This document shows, piece after piece, positions 3,301 to 27,526 of a DNA stretch of 64,000 bases. Where the stretch lies: positions 1 to 64,000 of the forward strand of contig JRFF01000007.1 in the NCBI GenBank assembly GCA_000753575.1. The letters are read 5' to 3'. Position 1 is the stretch's first letter; each line of letters opens with the position of its first letter. This stretch comes from Candidatus Izimoplasma sp. HR2. Its GTDB lineage: Bacteria > Bacillota_I > Bacilli_A > Izemoplasmatales > Izemoplasmataceae. The position numbers were made by a program, and so were the translations under genes. The notes below the pieces were generated by a model that searched no databases, was not told the origin of the DNA, and was given only the letters and a program-made list of their open reading frames with translations.

Positions 3301-3621
3301 AATCATTACGCTATCCATATTAGCGCTACTTTCAAACTCTAAAAAGATAATTGAAACATTCTCTTGAGAAGTGGAAGTTAAATTTTTAATATTTGTAGTT
3401 GTTGCAAATGTTTCTTCTAATGGTTTAGAAACAACATCTTCAACCTCAGTAGGACTTGCTCCAATATACGTAGTTACTACTACAGCATAAGGAATATTCA
3501 TACTAGGGAATAAGTCTGTTGTTAATCTTGTAAAAGATACAACCCCAAACACAGCAACTATAATTACTGCCATAAATACTGTTATCGCTTTTTCAACTGA
3601 ATACTTTGCTAAATTCTTCAT
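334..3621 (-). CDS. RND-family efflux transporter, SwrC/AcrB-like (HAE type)
   Basis: A 1,095-residue inner-membrane RND permease of the AcrB/SwrC family, which exports drugs or amphiphiles using the proton gradient. The sequence shows the usual layout of one N-terminal helix, a large extracytoplasmic loop, six helices, a second large loop and six more. TM4 has the family motif GIGMLVDNSIVVMEN; the matching TM10 motif reads VVNNGIVLVDY, so the lysine of AcrB is absent, as in Gram-positive SwrC-like pumps. After TM12 there is an extra hydrophobic hairpin of about 50 residues. No membrane-fusion or outer-membrane partner is adjacent, so it may act alone. The start is the second in-frame ATG, with AGAAGG 7 bases before it; longer starts would run through the operator. 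The 3' end overlaps the TetR gene. Confidence 0.93.
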   Translation of the reverse strand: MKNLAKYSVEKAITVFMAVIIVAVFGVVSFTRLTTDLFPSMNIPYAVVVTTYIGASPTEVEDVVSKPLEETFATTTNIKNLTSTSQENVSIIFLEFESSANMDSVMIEMRENLDMVLSSLPDEVGNPMIIKINPDMMPIMQFSVSKEGLTQQELTLLVEDEVLPNIERIGGVASVSVSGAYGSEISVVIDDVALALVNEDIRTALLTIDPLDEVEDIQLDKEMISNILQAQNFEFPVGYINVENVNYLVRVGDEFNNLDEINDLVIFDFSPLIDVVTLSDIASVEFINANDKEYSKVNGDNAISITVQKSSNYATTDVTKEILSVIEGITEVEGIDFTILLDQGKYIEQATGSVVNNLIYGAILAVVILFIFLRNFRATFIVGIAIPISLLFAIILIYISGITLNIVSLGGLALGIGMLVDNSIVVMENIFRLKKEGLSNKEAAIKGTAQVGGAITASTLTTISVFIPIMFIEGFIKEIFLQMALTITFSLVASLLIALTFVPSISSKIFKEGQDEGKEGKAFEKFKNWYDKVFNFSFNFKFIILPLVAILFVGSIWLASTNGFEYFPTADEGGITISVSNPKTDPLSFDEFIDVLDDLNDDLLAHSDIETVGITLGGGEMIFLGISDSDNATINVILSSDRELETIDVQAELTELLDDDYSNIEYSISGSQDMTQAFTGSGIQIQLSGFELETLKDEAIAIATLLESVEGLKEIDTGVGKEADEIKITVDKAEAIKFGITTAQVMGAVAGNLSGEEVVTMLSMNGELYDVYVYDQFSKSDDTVYTVTNIENMIVGLHMMTGLPVTVNDVADVEIVKGFSTISRENGSRVLTISADFVEGFNASLVAQDVADVMEDYTAPTGYEYTVQGENEEIMEAFGVLGLAVLLAVVLIYMIMASQFQSLSYPFIIMFTIPLAFTGGFAILFITGMAVSVVSLIGLIILTGVVVNNGIVLVDYTNQLRATGLTVKEALLEAGRTRMRPIIMTALTTILALIAMALAIGEGAEMMQPMAVTTIGGLIYATMLTLIVVPIMYYLVTKYAKIFMSILSIFVLILGGGILYFFLGSILYLIGSGLLIIGVIVYLVLVIKQGVESIE

Positions 3622-3719: not shown

Positions 3720-5225
3720 TTATCTTACGTTTGTATTGATGTCTCCATTTGATGTATCTCTTTCATAAACTGATGGTAAGAAATCTGTATCAGTATTATA
3801 GAATTCAATATCTCCATTTGATGTATCTAAATAAATTTTATCTATATAAACATCATTCATTATAATCTTTCCATTTGATGTATCCGCATCAAATGTAACT
3901 CCATCTTGATTTAATACATTTAAGTTATCTGCATTAATTCTTCCGTTTGATGTATAAAGATCATAATTAAGAAATTCCATATTATCTACTGTGATTGATC
4001 CATTACTAGTTATTACATCTAAGTCATATTGTCCGATAATATTTTTTACAACAACATCTCCATTTGATGTAGTTAAATCAATATTTCCTTCAACAGTTAA
4101 GCCATCTAAAGTGATTCTTCCGTTAAGAACTTCAACACTAATACTCTCTGCACTAATGTTTCTAATATCAACTTGTCCGTTATATGATTTAATATCTATA
4201 TCTCCCAATAATAATGCTTCAGGAACTTCGATAACTATTCTTTCTCCACCGTTTAATAAAGCAAATATTTGTTCAAGGTTAAAGAAAGTAAAACTAGTTT
4301 CAACATTATTTGATATAGTAATTGTATTTGTATCTACATCAACAACTATTTCATAATCATTTTCTTCAATGTAAGTACGAGTAATAATAATTTCATCACC
4401 AGTGATAGGATGAATATCTACTTGCATACTTTCAAAATCAGTAATAATTTGCCATGATTCTCCATCAATAATATCTTGAGTAAGATCTTCTTGATTCACT
4501 TCTGTAAGTTGTGGTTGATTACCATAAACGTCAAATACATTTTCATCTCCGGTAAATAAATAGAATCCAGTATATCCCATAACTACGATAGCCCCAATAA
4601 ATGATACTGACTTAATCATATTTAATAGTTTATGTTTTTTAAACCATTCATCAACACTTATTTTATTTAATCTCTTAGCTACTTTTTCTCTATTTTTAAA
4701 CTTAAATACATTTAGGTGATAGATAAGTATTCTCTTTGTTACCCAAATTGATAGTTCTAATACTAATAATCCAAATAATAATATTAGTATATATGCTCCA
4801 GTTGCGAACCAAAATACCATTGTATCCATTGTAGTAGTTTGACCAAATAACAACCCAAATACACCTATATAAGATACTAATGTTCCAAATATAGAAACTA
4901 CAGTTCCATATAATGTAGGAAGAAGCCATGAAGCTATAAGTACGTCAAATATAATAAGCCAAACAACTCTAGCTGTACTAATATTTGTATATCTCTCTTC
5001 CTTAGTTTTAACAAACTTAGGACTAACTCCATATTCCTCAAGTACATTTCTGGCAATAACTTCAGGTTCTTCAAGTTCACCAATTACTTCTAACTCTGTT
5101 TTGTTTTCATAAATAGTCCCACTATAAAATCTTTCTTCATAGAATGCGAGTATTTCTTTTCTCTCTTCTCTATCTAATAAAGATAACTCTTTATCTAACT
5201 TTCTTAAAAAATCTAACTTATTCAT
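3720..5225 (-). CDS. HAAS-domain (DUF1700) membrane protein with DUF4097 adhesin-like domain
   Basis: 501 residues. Residues 1-60 match a HAAS/DUF1700 domain (starts NKLDFLRKLDKEL, with an EEPEVIARNVL segment), which commonly occurs next to PadR regulators. About three membrane helices follow, then a segment near 240 and a DUF4097 domain to the C-terminus. That domain repeats a TSNGDI/TSNGKI-like turn about seven times at roughly 18-20-residue spacing, as expected of a beta-helix. The start is ATG at 5225 with AGAGGTG 6 bases upstream; an in-frame GTG three codons earlier is part of that site. It overlaps the end of padR by 8 bases. The family is linked to envelope-stress sensing; the substrate is unknown. 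Confidence 0.85.
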   Translation of the reverse strand: MNKLDFLRKLDKELSLLDREERKEILAFYEERFYSGTIYENKTELEVIGELEEPEVIARNVLEEYGVSPKFVKTKEERYTNISTARVVWLIIFDVLIASWLLPTLYGTVVSIFGTLVSYIGVFGLLFGQTTTMDTMVFWFATGAYILILLFGLLVLELSIWVTKRILIYHLNVFKFKNREKVAKRLNKISVDEWFKKHKLLNMIKSVSFIGAIVVMGYTGFYLFTGDENVFDVYGNQPQLTEVNQEDLTQDIIDGESWQIITDFESMQVDIHPITGDEIIITRTYIEENDYEIVVDVDTNTITISNNVETSFTFFNLEQIFALLNGGERIVIEVPEALLLGDIDIKSYNGQVDIRNISAESISVEVLNGRITLDGLTVEGNIDLTTSNGDVVVKNIIGQYDLDVITSNGSITVDNMEFLNYDLYTSNGRINADNLNVLNQDGVTFDADTSNGKIIMNDVYIDKIYLDTSNGDIEFYNTDTDFLPSVYERDTSNGDINTNVR

Positions 5226-15500: not shown

Positions 15501-16829
15501 TTATCTACTTTCTGTAACTCTTGATTCTCCTGATTTACCTAAAGCATATTTAACTCCAATAGGTCCAATAAATGCGTAGAATAATGTAGCTATTAAGATT
15601 ACGATAAGAATAGTTACACCTTCACTTGGGAAGTCGGTTCTAGCTTGGTATGCCATACCAAGTGCAACTCCTGCTTGAGGTAGTAAACTTACTCCTAAGT
15701 ACTTTCTAATTACAGGTACAGACTTCATTACTCTAGCTCCTAAGTAAGATCCAAAGATTTTACCAAAGATTCTTAATCCAATATATCCTGAAGTAACAAC
15801 AATCATTGCACCGTAAGCTATATCAGTTTGTCCTAAGAAGGCGATTACTAATTCAGCTCCAGCAATTGTGAAGAATGCGATTAAGATTGGTGGTATAAAT
15901 TTATCAACAGCAAGTTCTGTATCATGTGCGTTTACTCTAGTAATAATATTAGTAACTGTAACACCAAGTACCATCGGTGTTAAGATTGGTGATAAGTGAA
16001 CTGAAATATCTCCAAAGTGAATTCCTAATTTAGCTACTGCAACTGTTAAGAATACTCCAAATACACTAGCTACTAAGAATACTTCATATTTATCATCACT
16101 TTTTTTATCAGATTTTTTAATAATCATAGCTACTATTACCCCAAAGACAATACCAACTAGTAGTGAAAATACTAATTCAAAGAAAGGGTCTGCGATTGTT
16201 TCAAAAAAGCTTAATTGCACTCCTTTTTCTAATGCCTTAGCGACTGATAATAATACACCAAATATAATAATACCAACAGCATCATCTAATCCAACAAGCG
16301 GAATCAATGTATCTGTAAGTGGCCCTTTAGTTTTCATTTTTTTAGTAAGTAACATTATTGAAGCAGGTTCAGTAGCTGTTGCGATAGCACCAAATATTAG
16401 TGCAACTGGAAGTGAAACTCCTAAAAGTAATAATCCAATTGATACTACTGCAGTCGTTAACGCTGCTTGAGCAATTGTAATTACAATTATTTCAGCACCT
16501 GTATGTCTTAATTTGCTAAATACTAACTCTCTACCAATACCATAAGCTATAAATCCAAGAGCAACTGAAGAAATTACTTCTAAGTTGATCATTAAGTCTT
16601 CAAAATTAAGTGCAACTAATATTCCCCCTAATAATAAACCGGCTAAAATATAACCAGTTATGTAAGGTATTCTAACTTTCTCAACTATTTTTCCCATAAA
16701 GAGTCCGAGTAAAACAATAGCACCTAGCACTATTAAACTTTCATAAGTTACTACTCCATCTCCTGATAACATTAAAATATTCACATTTACATCTTCTTTC
16801 ATATTTATATATACTAAATCACTGCACAT
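15501..16829 (-). CDS. CPA2-family cation/proton antiporter (copy 1)
   Basis: 442 residues with 12-13 hydrophobic helices and almost no soluble part. Segments such as IPYITGYILAGLLLGG, IFGAIATATEPASIML and LIPLVGLDDAVGIIIFG match sodium/hydrogen exchangers of the KefB/NhaS class; the Asp pair in LDDAVG is the expected ion-binding region. No RCK/TrkA domain is attached. The start at 16829 is chosen because AGGAG lies 8 bases before it. It is paralogous to the gene just upstream and separated from it by a terminator. The ion (Na+ or K+) cannot be told. Confidence 0.88.
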   Translation of the reverse strand: MCSDLVYINMKEDVNVNILMLSGDGVVTYESLIVLGAIVLLGLFMGKIVEKVRIPYITGYILAGLLLGGILVALNFEDLMINLEVISSVALGFIAYGIGRELVFSKLRHTGAEIIVITIAQAALTTAVVSIGLLLLGVSLPVALIFGAIATATEPASIMLLTKKMKTKGPLTDTLIPLVGLDDAVGIIIFGVLLSVAKALEKGVQLSFFETIADPFFELVFSLLVGIVFGVIVAMIIKKSDKKSDDKYEVFLVASVFGVFLTVAVAKLGIHFGDISVHLSPILTPMVLGVTVTNIITRVNAHDTELAVDKFIPPILIAFFTIAGAELVIAFLGQTDIAYGAMIVVTSGYIGLRIFGKIFGSYLGARVMKSVPVIRKYLGVSLLPQAGVALGMAYQARTDFPSEGVTILIVILIATLFYAFIGPIGVKYALGKSGESRVTESR

Positions 16830-16867
16830 AATTCTACTCCTATGTTTTACATAATGCAAGTAAAAAA

Positions 16868-16896
16868 AGAAAAAAGGTTTCAAAAAGAAACCTTTT
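16868..16896 (-). terminator. Terminator between the two antiporter genes
   Basis: Stem AAAAGGTTTC/GAAACCTTTT with a 5-base loop and a T run on the minus strand, directly after the second antiporter gene. Confidence 0.9.
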
Positions 16897-16905
16897 ATAA
16901 TAATT

Positions 16906-18240
16906 CTAATTACTCCAACCAGTTTTAGCTCCATCAATTTCTCCAGCTCTTGAAAGTGCACTCTTAACTACTACTAGTCCGAGTACCTCATAAATAACTG
17001 TCGCAGCTAATACGATTGTCATGATATTTGTACCTATCATTTCAAATCCAACAAGCTCTTTAAATCGTAACTCTGTGGTTAATGCCATATCTATTGCAAC
17101 CCCAGCCTGTGGGATTAAAGTATATCCTAAATACTTTGTAACAGTAGGTGGAGCGTGGGATATTTTTGCCCCTGTATAAGCCCCAAGTATTTTCCCAAAT
17201 ACTCTAAACATAATATAGATTAAACCAACTATTCCAACTGTTATTAATGCAGATAAATCTAGTTCAGCTCCAGCAAGAGTGAAAAATCCAAGCAAGATTG
17301 GAGCACTAAATAAATCTGTATTTTTTGTTAATCTTTTCTCAAATGCATCATCTATTTGATTAGTTAATACTACTCCAATAGTCATTGGAAGTAATATTGC
17401 AGATAAATAGATTGCTTGGTGAAGACCAAAAAAGTTCATTATAATTGGTACTTGTCCAATACCAATCCCAGCAAAGATAATTCCTAAAGTCATCATTAAC
17501 AGCATTGAATCTGATTCTCTATTAAACTTCTTAACGATAAATGATAATATATATCCTAGAATCAATCCTATTAAAATGGATATTATTATTTCTAATAGCG
17601 GATCTATTATCATTGCAGCAGCACTTACAGTACCACTAATACCAAGTAATGTAGTCCCAAGAGATAACATCATAGCAAACAACATAATTCCAATTGCATC
17701 ATCAAGTGCTACAAGTGGAAGTAATACATCTGTAACAGGTCCTTTTGTTCTAAAGTTTTTAACTACAGCAACGATAGGACCTGGTGCAGTTGCAGTCGCT
17801 ATTGCACCTAAGATTAAAGCATATGTCCAAATATATTCTCCATCAGTAACTGTTAAATACGAACCAACTGCTAATATAACAAATATAGCAGTCATAAATG
17901 CTTGTGTTAATGTAATGATTGTAACTTGTTTTCCTGTTTTCTTAAGTTTTCTAAATTTTAATTCAAGTCCAATTGTATATCCAATAAACCCAATCGCAAC
18001 TTGTCTAATAAGTGTGAATTTTTCTACCATATCATGTGATAAAACTCCTAATACACTTGGCCCAATTAAGATTCCTATTAAGATATAACCTGTAACTTTA
18101 GGAAATCTAATTTGTTCCATTAATTTACCACCAATAAGTGCTAAAACAATTAAAGCTGCAATTCCAAAAACAACATTTGAATGAAGGTTTTCAATCCAGG
18201 ATAAGTCGTTAGCTACCCCAGAGCTTAGTAAATTAATCAT
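16906..18240 (-). CDS. CPA2-family cation/proton antiporter (copy 2)
   Basis: 444 residues, the same fold and motifs as its neighbour: FPKVTGYILIGILIGPSVLG, GAIATATAPGPIVA, LPLVALDDAIGIMLFA. The two copies differ throughout, so this is an old duplication. The ATG shares a TAATG junction with the stop of the GGDEF-EAL gene, so its translation is probably coupled to that protein. AGAGGG lies 8 bases upstream, inside the GGDEF-EAL gene. Confidence 0.88.
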   Translation of the reverse strand: MINLLSSGVANDLSWIENLHSNVVFGIAALIVLALIGGKLMEQIRFPKVTGYILIGILIGPSVLGVLSHDMVEKFTLIRQVAIGFIGYTIGLELKFRKLKKTGKQVTIITLTQAFMTAIFVILAVGSYLTVTDGEYIWTYALILGAIATATAPGPIVAVVKNFRTKGPVTDVLLPLVALDDAIGIMLFAMMLSLGTTLLGISGTVSAAAMIIDPLLEIIISILIGLILGYILSFIVKKFNRESDSMLLMMTLGIIFAGIGIGQVPIIMNFFGLHQAIYLSAILLPMTIGVVLTNQIDDAFEKRLTKNTDLFSAPILLGFFTLAGAELDLSALITVGIVGLIYIMFRVFGKILGAYTGAKISHAPPTVTKYLGYTLIPQAGVAIDMALTTELRFKELVGFEMIGTNIMTIVLAATVIYEVLGLVVVKSALSRAGEIDGAKTGWSN

Positions 18241-19616: not shown

Positions 19617-19808
19617 TTTCAAACAAAAAAGCAATTCACAGAATTGCATAAATTATCAATGGGGTATCATTATGGAGTTTATCCTGTTTTCATTATTGTA
19701 ATTACTAAGATTGTAGTGTTGTCATATATTCACCCCTCAAGTAGAAAAGTGTGTTATTGAGCTGATATATTAAAAAAACAACATAGAATCAATAGGAAGT
19801 GTGTTGTT
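19617..19808 (-). other. Intergenic stretch with two terminator-like hairpins; possible small RNA
   Basis: Between 19601 and 19867 no protein gene longer than a few codons is evident. On the minus strand two hairpins with T runs are seen: GCAATTC/GAATTGC then TTTTTT (19617-19647) and AACAACA/TGTTGTT then a T run (19771-19808). Between them a possible promoter (TTGATT, 17 bases, TATATC) is followed by GAGGGGTGAATATATG opening a 6-codon ORF (MTTLQS), and GGGGT/ACCCC could pair over distance. A short transcript of about 135 bases ending at the first hairpin is possible. No known RNA family was recognised. Confidence 0.4.
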
Positions 19809-19867
19809 TATTACTGGAACGTAAATTCAAATAAAGAACCGTAAAAACTACCTTTTAATTTTTGGTA

Positions 19868-19896
19868 TTGCTTATCCAAAACTGCTGTGATACAAT
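19868..19896 (+). promoter_or_regulatory. Promoter of the cobalamin-riboswitch/yitT unit
   Basis: -35 TTGCTT (19868-19873), 17-base spacer, -10 TACAAT (19891-19896), just before the riboswitch. Confidence 0.8.
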
Positions 19897-19902
19897 GATG
19901 AC

Positions 19903-20130
19903 GATATATAATTGTAGTAAAGTTGAATACTAAAGAAAATAGTATTTATTAAAAGGGAATTCGGTTTAATTCCGTAACAGCCCCCGCTACTGTAATTGGC
20001 TAATAATTTTTCAATATGTCACTGAGATTTTTTTCTTGGGAAGGCGAAAAATTGTGCTTGATGCCATAAGTCAGGAGACCTGCTTTACGCAAGAAAACAA
20101 TGATTTCGGCGGGAAATTAGTTTGATAGTT
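19903..20130 (+). ncRNA. Cobalamin (B12) riboswitch
   Basis: The conserved core of the cobalamin aptamer is present in order: AAGGGAATTCGGTTTAATTC, then ACAGCCCCCGCTACTGTAA (about 19978-19996), CACTGAG, TTGGGAAGGCG, GATGCCATAAGTC, and the B12 box AGTCAGGAGACCTGC near 20070-20085. Exact ends are estimated. It is followed by a strong intrinsic terminator (20163-20196) and then by the yitT pair, so control is probably at the level of transcription ending: bound B12 favours the terminator. Confidence 0.93.
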
Positions 20131-20162
20131 TATCAATCTTTTTTTAGATAAGACTATAAAAC

Positions 20163-20196
20163 AAAAACCTCCAAATCTAGTTTGGAGGTTTTTTTA
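20163..20196 (+). terminator. Riboswitch-controlled intrinsic terminator
   Basis: Stem AAACCTCCAAA/TTTGGAGGTTT followed by seven T, between the B12 aptamer and the first yitT gene; the expression platform of the riboswitch. Confidence 0.92.
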
Positions 20197-20246
20197 TACC
20201 TTTAGACTAGTTCGAAACTAAAAGAAAAGGTTATAGGTATCAAAAA

Positions 20247-21098
20247 ATGAAAAAAAATGTGAAGGATTTTGTATCAATGAATTTAGGAATCATTATGGTA
20301 TCCTCAGGAATGTATTTTTTCTTAATGCCAAACACTTTTGCGACAGGAGGAGCAAATGGGTTAGCCATAATAATAAACCATTTCCTCTCATTTCTTCCTG
20401 TAGGAGTATTAATGATCTTAATAAACATCATATTGTTTATCACAGCCTTTATTTCTATAGGTAAGGCATTTGGTGTGAAAACAATCTACGCTAGTTTAGC
20501 TGTATCTTTATTAGTTCTCCTATTTGAAAACGTAATCCCGTTAAGCCACCCTCTATCAGATGACTTACTACTAGAACTAATCTTTGGAATCTTAATCTCA
20601 GGAACTGGAATGGGAATGGTCTTTAACCAAAACGCTTCTACCGGAGGTACCGATATAAGCGCGAAGATCTTAAATAAATTCTTTAATATCGATTTAGGTA
20701 GAGCCGTATTCTTGTCAGATATCTTGATTACAGTGATGGCAGGATTTATATTTGGTTATAAATTGTCCTTGTATGCTATGTTAGGGGTTCTAATCAATAG
20801 TTTTGTCATCGATAGTATTATAAGAGGATTTAATCTTAGAAAAGAAGTAACCATTATTAGTGAGCAAAGTGAAGACATCAAAAAATATATCATATCGGAT
20901 TTAGATAGAGGGGTTACGGTATATAGAGGAGAAGGTGGTTATTCCAATAACGACCTTAATATCATAGTTGTAATCATCAATAAAAGAGAATTTATAAGGT
21001 TGCGAACCTACATTAACAAAAAAGATTCCAATGCTTTTCTTACAGTGAAAAATACCCATGAAGTATATGGGTATGGATTCATGAAACTACATAGTTGA
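20247..21098 (+). CDS. YitT-family membrane protein (DUF161 plus DUF2179), copy 1, under B12 riboswitch
   Basis: 283 residues. Five or six membrane helices up to about residue 200 (family marks MPNTFATGGANGLAI and NASTGGTDISAKI), then a C-terminal cytoplasmic DUF2179 domain of about 75 residues (RGVTVYRGEGGY). YitT proteins have no settled function; transport is suspected. Being the first gene after a B12 riboswitch, this one may move cobalamin, a precursor or cobalt, or serve a B12-dependent need; this is inference. The ribosome binding site is weak (AGGT about 10 bases before the ATG). The gene uses noticeably more C-ending codons than its neighbours. Confidence 0.88.
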   Translation: MKKNVKDFVSMNLGIIMVSSGMYFFLMPNTFATGGANGLAIIINHFLSFLPVGVLMILINIILFITAFISIGKAFGVKTIYASLAVSLLVLLFENVIPLSHPLSDDLLLELIFGILISGTGMGMVFNQNASTGGTDISAKILNKFFNIDLGRAVFLSDILITVMAGFIFGYKLSLYAMLGVLINSFVIDSIIRGFNLRKEVTIISEQSEDIKKYIISDLDRGVTVYRGEGGYSNNDLNIIVVIINKREFIRLRTYINKKDSNAFLTVKNTHEVYGYGFMKLHS

Positions 21099-21106
21099 GA
21101 TAAAAA

Positions 21107-22036
21107 ATGAATAATAACGTTAAGAGATACACAAACCTATTCTTAGGTAACATCATAAATGCTTATGCAGTTACCTGTATATTAAGACCCAACGGTCTTA
21201 TGTCAGGTGGTTTAACAGGTTTTGCAAGAGTACTAGAAGGAATCACTTTCCAGTTACTAGAACCAAACATTTTTATCGAGAAATACTACTTCAATATCAT
21301 ATACTATTTCTTAACAATAGTAGTACTAATATTAACCTGCATATTTTTAGGAAAAAGTGATGCCCTAAGAATAGTTTTTCTATCGATTTTCTATCCTACA
21401 CTACTATTTGTTTTTACCTTCTTAGACTTACCTACAATTTATGTATTCACACAAACTATAAGCGGAGATTTCTTAAATGATTTACTTGTATTATCAATCA
21501 TATACGGATTTCTAATAGGACTCGGAACTGGACTTGTATTAAAAAGTGGCTTTACATCAGGTGGTACAGACACAATCGCGAAAATAGCCTACCGCAAAAT
21601 CTACCCCTTTTTCAGATATAGCCAAATTCTTTTACTAGTAGACGCAATCATCATCCTTACAGGATTCTTCCTTTTTGGAATCCAAATAACAGTTTATGCG
21701 ATAATTATTAAATATATCGCAACAAAAACAGTAGACATGGTCTTACTAGGTATCAGCAACAAACTAATCAAAATAGAAATCATCAGTACAAGAAACCCCG
21801 AAATAGTAAACTACATTCAAACAGTTATCCATAGAGGTGTTACTTGTATTGAAGTAGAAGGTCAATTCAAAAAAGAAAAAGTAAATCAAATAAACACAAT
21901 CTGTTCCCCAAAGGAAGGTTACAAAATCAAAAACTACATCGCAACAGTAGACGAAAAAGCATTTATTCACCTTATCTATGTTCCATCAGTTTGGGGGAAT
22001 GGATTTAAAAACATCTATAATGATGAACTATCATAG
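21107..22036 (+). CDS. YitT-family membrane protein (DUF161 plus DUF2179), copy 2
   Basis: 309 residues, the same architecture as the gene 8 bases upstream: LRPNGLMSGGLTGFARV in the first repeat, LKSGFTSGGTDTIAKI in the second, and a DUF2179 tail with HRGVTCIEVEG. The pair is in one transcript after the B12 riboswitch, so the two products may form a heteromer. The Shine-Dalgarno sequence is poor (TTGAGAT), suggesting translational coupling. C-ending codons (ATC, TTC, AAC, TAC) are frequent here too. Confidence 0.87.
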   Translation: MNNNVKRYTNLFLGNIINAYAVTCILRPNGLMSGGLTGFARVLEGITFQLLEPNIFIEKYYFNIIYYFLTIVVLILTCIFLGKSDALRIVFLSIFYPTLLFVFTFLDLPTIYVFTQTISGDFLNDLLVLSIIYGFLIGLGTGLVLKSGFTSGGTDTIAKIAYRKIYPFFRYSQILLLVDAIIILTGFFLFGIQITVYAIIIKYIATKTVDMVLLGISNKLIKIEIISTRNPEIVNYIQTVIHRGVTCIEVEGQFKKEKVNQINTICSPKEGYKIKNYIATVDEKAFIHLIYVPSVWGNGFKNIYNDELS

Positions 22037-22069
22037 GAAAAACATTGTAATAGTTAAAATGTAAAAAAG

Positions 22070-22096
22070 GTATAAAAAAAGTTCATTCCCCGAACT
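22070..22096 (-). terminator. Terminator of the Leu-Gln-His tRNA unit
   Basis: Stem AGTTC/GAACT with a GGGGAAT loop, followed by seven T on the minus strand, about 60 bases after tRNA-Leu. Confidence 0.75.
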
Positions 22097-22155
22097 CTGC
22101 TTAACTAAGGCGTTAAGTAGAATATTCATATAGAAATAAACTTTTAGTGTCAACA

Positions 22156-22238
22156 TGGTGCGGGTGACAGGAATTGAACCTGCACTCCGAAGAACTAGAT
22201 CCTAAGTCTAGCGCGTCTGCCAGTTCCGCCACACCCGC
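22156..22238 (-). tRNA. tRNA-Leu (anticodon UAG)
   Basis: The acceptor GCGGGTG pairs with CACCCGC; the anticodon stem CTAGA/TCTAG holds loop CTTAGGA, giving UAG. A T-arm with GGTTCAATTCC and an encoded CCA are seen, with an extended variable arm as expected for Leu. Last of three tRNAs in one unit. Confidence 0.96.
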
Positions 22239-25814: not shown

Positions 25815-26663
25815 TTACTCAGCAAACCAACTTGTACCATATCCTTTTTTTCCAACATGGATAGAAAATACTGGTCCTAGGTAATTAGTGAAGACTATTT
25901 CCATATCTGGAAACTTATCAGTAATTACTTGTTTAAGTTGTTCAGCACTTTCTTGTGAATTATGTGATGTAATTCTAAAAGTAATTTTCTTTAATCCCTC
26001 TGAATCTTTTAATATATTTTCAACCATATAATTGTGAACTTTTTTATATGTTCTTTCCTTATGTACAACTTCTAGCTTACCATTTATTATCTTAATGATT
26101 GGTTTAATTCTCAATACTGTACCAATAGCAGCTGAAGCACCAGATATTCTTCCACCTTTAACAAGTGAGAATAAATTTTCAACTGTAAACATTTGTCCAG
26201 AAGTTTTAATAATATTATCTATTCTAGTAATGATTTCTTCTGAAGTATTTCCGTCATTAACCATTTTAATTACTTGTTCAGCTATCATTTCAGTTCCGAA
26301 TGCTGCAAGCATAGTATCAAAGATATATACTTTATCAGAATCATCTAACATACTCTTAGCTAAATTCGCTGATTGGTATGTTCCACTAATATTTTTTGAT
26401 AAACAAACAACAAATATTTTTTCATAACCTTTACTAATTAATTCTTCGTAGTTCTCTAAGAATTCTCCTGGAGAAGGTTGGCTTGTTGTAAAACTAGCTC
26501 CTTGAGCTTGTCTATTAAAGATATAATCATTATCAACATCAACTTCTCTTTTTGATACATCTCCTTCAACAACATTTAAAGATACAACCGTTAATTCATT
26601 GTCCTTAATTTGTTTCTCTGTTAAATAAACTGTACTATCAATTACAATTGCATGTTTTTTCAT
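25815..26663 (-). CDS. DegV-family fatty-acid-binding protein (copy 1)
   Basis: 282 residues, the usual DegV length. Seen: VIDSTVYLTEKQI, the conserved TSQPSPGEFLENYEEL (fatty-acid pocket), SKNISGTYQSANLA and VENLFSLVKGGRIS. In other Bacillota, DegV/FakB proteins present fatty acids to the kinase FakA for phospholipid synthesis; FakA is not in this window. AAAAGGAGAAT precedes the ATG. A paralogue lies 15 bases upstream in the same transcript. Confidence 0.92.
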   Translation of the reverse strand: MKKHAIVIDSTVYLTEKQIKDNELTVVSLNVVEGDVSKREVDVDNDYIFNRQAQGASFTTSQPSPGEFLENYEELISKGYEKIFVVCLSKNISGTYQSANLAKSMLDDSDKVYIFDTMLAAFGTEMIAEQVIKMVNDGNTSEEIITRIDNIIKTSGQMFTVENLFSLVKGGRISGASAAIGTVLRIKPIIKIINGKLEVVHKERTYKKVHNYMVENILKDSEGLKKITFRITSHNSQESAEQLKQVITDKFPDMEIVFTNYLGPVFSIHVGKKGYGTSWFAE

Positions 26664-26677
26664 AATTATTCTCCTTT

Positions 26678-27526
26678 TTATTCAGCGCACCAAGATACGC
26701 CGTATCCTCTTTTTCCTAAGTGAAGACTAAATACAGGTCCTAAATATTCATTAAACGATACTTTTACATTATTAAATTTTTCTTTTATTGCTTGTTCTAA
26801 AACCTTTGCTTGTTCTATTGAATTGTGACTTAATATTCTTACATGTATTGTTTTAAATCCTTCAGTTGTTTTATCCATTCTTGAAAGAATTGCTTCTACT
26901 ACACCTTTATGTGTTCTTGGTGATTTAAGTAAATCAAGTTTACCTTCTATCATTTGAATTAAAGGTTTAAGTCTTAATACAGAACCAACAGCTGCTTTAG
27001 CTTTTGAAATTCTTCCTGAACGATATAAGCTAATCATGTTTTCAATTGTAAATATAAGATTAGTTGATTCAAGTAATTTATTAATTCTAGTTATAATCTC
27101 TTCTTCAGTTTTATCTTCTTCAATCATTTTATGGACTTCTAAAGCTAACATTTCATTTCCAAAAGCAGCCATATTAGATTTAAAGATATAAACGCTATCT
27201 GGATTATCTAACATGTTTTTTGCTAAGTTTGCTGATTGGTATGTTCCACTTAGTGGTTCACTCAAACAAACAACAAATACTTTTTCAAATCCTTTTTTAA
27301 ATTGCTTCTCATAAGCATCTAAAAATTCTCCTGGAGAAGGTTGGCTTGTTGTAAGCCTATGTCCGCTATCAAGTTTATCGTAAACAAAATTAACATCAAC
27401 ATCTAATTCTTTATAAGTTTCATCTTTATCAATTATATTAAGACTAACTTGAATAATATCAAAATCCTTTATTTCCTTTTTAGATAAATAAACTGTACTA
27501 TCAATAACCATTCCATAATTTCTCAT
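26678..27526 (-). CDS. DegV-family fatty-acid-binding protein (copy 2)
   Basis: 282 residues, the same length as copy 1 and clearly its duplicate (shared TSQPSPGEFLDAYEKQF, SGTYQSANLAKNMLD, IENMISLYRSGRIS and a matching C-terminus GKRGYGVSW). Two copies side by side may differ in the chain length or saturation they bind, as reported for FakB1 and FakB2. AAAGGAGAAT precedes the ATG. It lies 13 bases after the HlyIII gene. Confidence 0.92.
   Translation of the reverse strand: MRNYGMVIDSTVYLSKKEIKDFDIIQVSLNIIDKDETYKELDVDVNFVYDKLDSGHRLTTSQPSPGEFLDAYEKQFKKGFEKVFVVCLSEPLSGTYQSANLAKNMLDNPDSVYIFKSNMAAFGNEMLALEVHKMIEEDKTEEEIITRINKLLESTNLIFTIENMISLYRSGRISKAKAAVGSVLRLKPLIQMIEGKLDLLKSPRTHKGVVEAILSRMDKTTEGFKTIHVRILSHNSIEQAKVLEQAIKEKFNNVKVSFNEYLGPVFSLHLGKRGYGVSWCAE

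Follow-up and report, generated by a model that had tools for sequence, protein, structure and literature searches.

To our knowledge, YitT proteins (YitT/DUF161 family; PF02588 and PF10035, COG1284) have no agreed function and no known substrate. The two proteins described here match both Pfam models and share the predicted six helices and DUF2179 domain of the family. Most members lack a riboswitch (none was found at 120 other loci), whereas protein 1 of this locus belongs to a group linked to B12. Class-I cobalamin riboswitches control regulons such as btuFCD and cbiMNQO. The present locus has in common with them the aptamer, a terminator-type expression platform and membrane-protein targets, with the OFF logic assumed, but it differs in that its target, YitT, is a family without assigned function. 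The main text of a survey of these regulons (PMC3766115) makes no mention of YitT. Our search of the open literature found no papers linking YitT with B12, and the link is unreported as far as this literature shows.

Two further systems are close to the locus in part. The CbiMN components of cobalt ECF transporters are under the same riboswitch class and in one genome share an operon with a YitT gene, but no sequence or fold match was found between them and YitT. The DUF2179 structure 3hlu and, more weakly, the PII-like regulators SbtB, PstA and DarA match the fold of the C-terminal domain, which is here fused to a membrane domain without a solved relative.

A cobalamin riboswitch upstream of two YitT genes

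The window analysed comprises 64,000 nt of a contig of Candidatus Izimoplasma sp. HR2, in which an Rfam scan revealed one cobalamin riboswitch. This class-I aptamer (RF00174; 19903-20101, + strand) is full length, with model positions 1-189 covered, and its score of 121.3 bits (E 6.5e-30) compares with a gathering cutoff of 31.5 bits. Directly 3' of it lies a P13-like hairpin (20101-20119, + strand; predicted -4.6 kcal/mol), and an intrinsic terminator follows at 20163-20198 (+ strand), with a 14-bp stem (20163-20193, -16.4 kcal/mol) and a U-run of 7 T. Both the B12 aptamer and the intrinsic terminator had been called in a first-pass annotation of this DNA, and both calls are borne out. The 5' arm of the P13-like hairpin (20102-20113) is predicted to pair alternatively with the 5' arm of the terminator, forming an antiterminator of -8.9 kcal/mol. 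Of 19-mers drawn at random from the window, only 0.85% reach an equally good pairing. No further ORF is found between the aptamer and the first gene. By prediction, then, the aptamer is followed by an expression platform as in other RF00174 members, and the layout appears to be that of the usual transcription-terminating OFF switch, in which the ligand-bound state means stop. Binding of adenosylcobalamin or a related corrinoid would allow the P13-like hairpin to form, leaving the terminator 5' arm free, and transcription would end before the YitT genes. When corrinoid is short, pairing of 20102-20113 with the terminator 5' arm would lead to read-through and to synthesis of both YitT proteins.

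The same annotation had given the unit its own promoter. A candidate with an extended -10 (TTGCTT-17-TGaTACAAT) was recognized by eye at 19868-19896 on the + strand, the -10 ending at 19896. Its -35 (TTGCTT, 19868-19873; 17-nt spacer) is poor, with 3 of 6 consensus matches, and the candidate is absent from the output of a consensus promoter scan. An own promoter is thus plausible only.

The two genes, in the order initially described, code for proteins of 283 (protein 1; 20247-21098) and 309 residues (protein 2; 21107-22036), both on the + strand and 8 bases apart. Both proteins belong to the YitT family, as claimed, with YitT_membrane (PF02588; 196.6 bits for protein 1 and 104.5 for protein 2) and DUF2179 (PF10035; 66.7 and 42.7 bits) domains scoring above the curated cutoffs. 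They are 28% identical, and protein 2 belongs to another subfamily than protein 1. Neither matches the components of BtuFCD or other corrinoid ABC importers (FecCD permease, ATPase, binding protein). Nor did either protein give a Pfam match to an ECF S component, and in the fold search of the membrane domain the biotin S component was reached at E 3.4 only. A viral scan with protein 1 revealed no relatives, and phage records contained distant YitTs only, at about 27-30% for protein 2.

The AlphaFold2 model of protein 1 (mean pLDDT 91.2, pTM 0.83; 92.3 and 0.88 for the membrane domain alone) shows six membrane helices arranged in two similar halves, each composed of three long helices and a short one. 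The short helices come after GG motifs at positions 34-35 and 133-134. The internal repeat is weak by sequence (hhalign of the halves: E 0.0025, probability 4.8%), with the GG motifs aligned. Among the highly conserved polar residues are S131, T135, D136, K140, K144, D158 and D189. DUF2179 dominated the fold matches of the complete model, and the membrane domain by itself had no significant match among solved structures (best E 1.2). The C-terminal domain matches 3hlu (E 2.5e-4), with weaker matches to PII-like folds (E 0.003-0.03). This architecture is suggestive of a solute that is small and either polar or ionic, with regulation through a small ligand.

An insertion at a tRNA-Leu gene

The whole unit is held in an insertion of 2,492 bp (19663-22154). 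In a relative with 97% identity (locus L095 of genome G002), position 19662 of the window is joined straight to 22155, so that 19663-22154 is present in the host and absent there. The insert is missing beside tRNA-Leu in all 11 relatives tested, G002 and ten more. The only repeat at its edges is a 4-bp ATGG (19659-19662 and 22155-22158), no recombinase is encoded within its 2,492 bp, and its GC content of 31.7% exceeds that of the window (28.7%). It abuts exactly the 3' CCA end of the tRNA-Leu gene (22156-22238, - strand), which was identified by ARAGORN (anticodon tag) and Rfam. The aptamer is unlike the two other cobalamin riboswitches of the host, and the closest aptamers detected by blastn are those of Clostridium. 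Horizontal arrival of the insert would be the simplest reading.

On the tRNA side, the insert carries a terminator-like hairpin, AGTTCGGGGAATGAACT, followed by 7 T (22073-22096, - strand; read from the sequence). It supplies this hairpin to the tRNA operon, whose own hairpin has been pushed away by 2.5 kb. An integron-type cassette was considered and rejected by eye, the CTTAAC-GTTAAG hairpin near 22105 being too short for an attC site. Two other tandem paralog pairs were seen by eye in the window, coding for antiporter-like membrane proteins (15501-18240) and DegV-like proteins (25815-27526).

Recurrence of the riboswitch-YitT link

We scanned named bacterial genomes with a profile built from the alignment of the protein 1 clade, which yielded the 80 loci nearest to protein 1; an earlier genome scan with protein 2 alone as the query had found no loci. 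Rfam analyses of all 80 loci revealed an RF00174 aptamer directly upstream of YitT on the same strand in six of them, from Clostridium frigidicarnis, C. ihumii, C. tagluense, C. simiarum, an uncultured Clostridiaceae bin and Bacillota McBI.64. Among the 80 loci, RF00174 was the sole Rfam riboswitch class located directly upstream of YitT. The riboswitch-free orthologs of protein 2, and those of protein 1 in Izemoplasma, had suggested a link unique to the host, an idea that was dropped on the evidence of these linked loci. Each linked Clostridium genome has 7-14 cobalamin riboswitches, and in three of these genomes another of the riboswitches precedes a second YitT that differs from the first. 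At the L254 locus, a RAGATH-18 RNA (4824-4885, - strand; 62.9 bits) lies between the cobalamin riboswitch and the downstream YitT gene.

The family of C. simiarum was then sampled with 39 Clostridiaceae genomes, which contain at least 162 RF00174 matches and 149 YitT genes. The genome scan for riboswitches upstream of YitT that the first-pass annotation had suggested gave a positive result here: at least 11 YitT genes, in at least 9 of the 39 genomes, directly follow an RF00174 aptamer on the same strand, whereas the number expected by chance is 0.06 when calculated from length and 0.22 when calculated from gene number. Two of these 11 genes are from C. simiarum, the seed genome of the sample, where the link was already known, and because of shared ancestry the 11 do not represent as many independent events. 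The aptamer and the YitT domain are 180-546 nt apart in the 11 linked genes. None of 120 further YitT loci in a profile scan, covering about 1 kb upstream where the contig allowed, has a cobalamin riboswitch. The regulatory link between B12 and YitT thus extends beyond the host genome.

In a quick tree of all sampled YitTs, the riboswitch-linked proteins fall mainly into two ortholog groups. All eight Clostridium members of the group that includes protein 1 are in riboswitch operons, and only its Mycoplasmatota members are without; genomes labelled Mycoplasmatota/Tenericutes belong to the same order as the host. All seven members of the second group are linked, as are 8 of 12 when this group is taken more widely. 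Nevertheless, a wider locus set contains two Clostridium-clade YitTs (L109 and L114) without a correctly oriented riboswitch, and the two groups are therefore almost wholly, not wholly, riboswitch-controlled. Isolated linked YitTs occur outside both groups (L171, L254, L255 and L257), and a careful tree of a selected set required at least seven changes of riboswitch label. Among relatives of the Izemoplasma type, those closest to protein 1 lack a riboswitch. At L114 (Firmicutes bacterium UBA4845), a YitT of the protein 1 group is immediately followed by a cobalamin riboswitch on the other strand (3408-3558, - strand), whose transcript would cross this gene antisense toward a NifH-like gene.

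Protein 2 belongs to neither linked group. Its orthologs (46-53% identity) are found in another family of the class (f10), where they have no riboswitch. At L069-L074, they regularly adjoin an MprF-like LPG_synthase_TM gene, not B12 genes, which hints at a different role for this subfamily.

The first-pass annotation had also proposed that the two YitTs might act as a heteromer. The same architecture, a riboswitch followed by two tandem YitTs, was found in one other genome (G349). Since riboswitched YitTs are almost always single genes, a heteromer as the general form is not supported.

Gene neighbourhoods, host corrinoid economy and possible roles

The host assembly is a 2.1-Mb draft (93% complete, 1.3% contamination). 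One of its other cobalamin riboswitches (C26) heads btuF, btuC, btuD, cbiP, cbiB, cobD, cobC, cbiA, a gene for an ECF S component, cobU and cobS. The second (C22) heads genes for two DUF4430 proteins, the second of which scores slightly too low for the Pfam cutoff, and for a small membrane protein that matches no family. No corrin-ring methyltransferase was found in the assembly, whose sole TP_methylase is the rRNA enzyme RsmI, and the host thus apparently lacks corrin ring synthesis. Judging from its gene content, it requires AdoCbl for three mutases (glutamate mutase S subunit, lysine 5,6-aminomutase beta and ornithine aminomutase OraE) and probably ferments amino acids. With BtuFCD and salvage genes, and ring synthesis apparently absent, the host is thus a salvager of corrinoids that possesses a canonical importer.

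The notion that the pair stands in for an absent B12 importer is therefore not supported: BtuFCD, the salvage genes and the DUF4430 locus are under other riboswitches, and the YitT pair is an addition to BtuFCD, not a substitute for it. The first-pass annotation had also asked whether linked genomes lack btuFCD. C. frigidicarnis and C. tagluense have BtuFCD behind riboswitches besides their riboswitched YitTs. This touches on an observation that the first-pass annotation had itself named as counting against its proposal.

We collected the neighbours of the linked YitT genes. In G360, a single operon is composed of the riboswitch, cbiM, cbiN and YitT, with cbiQO not beside it. Within 9 kb, C. 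tagluense harbours a riboswitched btuR, cbiQ-cbiO-cbiM-cbiN, YitT with a sigma-54 activator gene, and a further riboswitched gene. At another C. tagluense locus (L108, 1164-1737), a cobalamin riboswitch is followed only by a 60-residue Fis-type helix-turn-helix fragment, which may be what is left of a second YitT/sigma-54 unit. A YitT tandem lies tail-to-tail with cobT, cbiX, cbiQ, cbiN and cbiM in Peptoclostridium acidaminophilum, and a BtuD-like gene adjoins the riboswitched YitT of G350, with aconitase/icd genes also alongside. In C. frigidicarnis, C. simiarum and G358, the order is riboswitch, YitT, sigma-54 activator and an HpaB-family gene, which we take from its sequence to code for a 4-hydroxybutyryl-CoA dehydratase. 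The riboswitch-YitT-sigma-54 activator unit adjoins a CoA-transferase gene in C. ihumii and the aconitase/icd genes in G350, and riboswitch, YitT and nrdA follow one another in G337. YitT is the constant partner, and genes for B12 supply and for B12 bypass are both found around it.

We consider that the YitTs are B12-repressed membrane transporters of corrinoid shortage, with the substrate left unspecified, and give this reading a probability of roughly 45%. They would most likely be small secondary transporters or channels, whose membrane part could be gated by the PII-like cytoplasmic DUF2179 domain. Topology and regulon together point to a transport role and to a tie with corrinoid supply: most likely, the YitTs would work beside BtuFCD and help to provide corrinoid, or else a small precursor or counter-ion required together with it. 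We propose more tentatively that the two YitT subfamilies represent an unrecognised class of B12-regulon transporters, with a membrane fold absent from the PDB and a PII-like gate, that move a corrinoid, a precursor or cobalt.

Several observations count against corrinoid supply. BtuFCD and the DUF4430 system are already under separate riboswitches, and a corrinoid, at about 1,350 Da, would be a large solute for a membrane domain of 196 residues. In addition, some riboswitched YitTs lie beside nrdA, sigma-54 activator and 4-hydroxybutyrate, or aconitase/icd genes, and the riboswitch-free Izemoplasma relatives of protein 1 and the MprF-like neighbour of the protein 2 orthologs also weigh on this side. 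The original proposal of transport of cobalamin, a corrinoid precursor or cobalt survives in part. The B12 link recurs, sometimes beside cobalt or B12 genes, but uptake of cobalt for de novo B12 synthesis is unlikely in the host, and movement of cobalamin itself is possible but weakened because BtuFCD is present in the same genomes.

The second-ranking reading, which we regard as rather unlikely, is that the YitTs import or export a metabolite such as an amino acid, an organic acid or a nucleoside when B12-dependent enzymes stop. The neighbouring nrdA (G337), HpaB-family (C. frigidicarnis, C. simiarum and G358), CoA-transferase (C. ihumii) and aconitase/icd (G350) genes are consistent with such a bypass, as are the three AdoCbl mutases and the probable amino acid fermentation of the host. 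B12-independent isozymes are already known under cobalamin riboswitches, isozymes of B12-dependent enzymes being treated as an accepted class of the regulon in the survey text cited above (PMC3766115). However, these neighbours vary by genome while YitT is constant, and the cbiMN-YitT operon and the C. tagluense cluster indicate supply.

Those same two loci, the G360 operon without adjacent cbiQO and the C. tagluense cluster with cbiMNQO, might instead suggest that YitT is a permease for cobalt or another divalent metal, alone or with CbiMN. We find this improbable: with no corrin-ring methyltransferase in its 93% complete assembly, the host would have little need of cobalt for B12, and other cbiMN loci hold a CbiQ-like gene where YitT stands. 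Least probable, and already disfavoured, is a riboswitch that came to the pair by chance with the insertion and has little meaning, for although the insertion at the tRNA end is private to the host and the aptamer differs from its two others, at least 11 links against 0.06-0.22 expected were observed in an independent family and in at least two ortholog groups.

Transporters of corrinoid shortage thus remain our preferred reading. YitT genes are common, with 149 in the 39 Clostridiaceae genomes, and the riboswitch is the first metabolite handle on the family known to us. It singles out particular YitT members, and corrinoid limitation as the condition, for tests in culturable Clostridium species. 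As the link recurs in many Clostridium genomes, it offers a direct route to the role of some YitT proteins.
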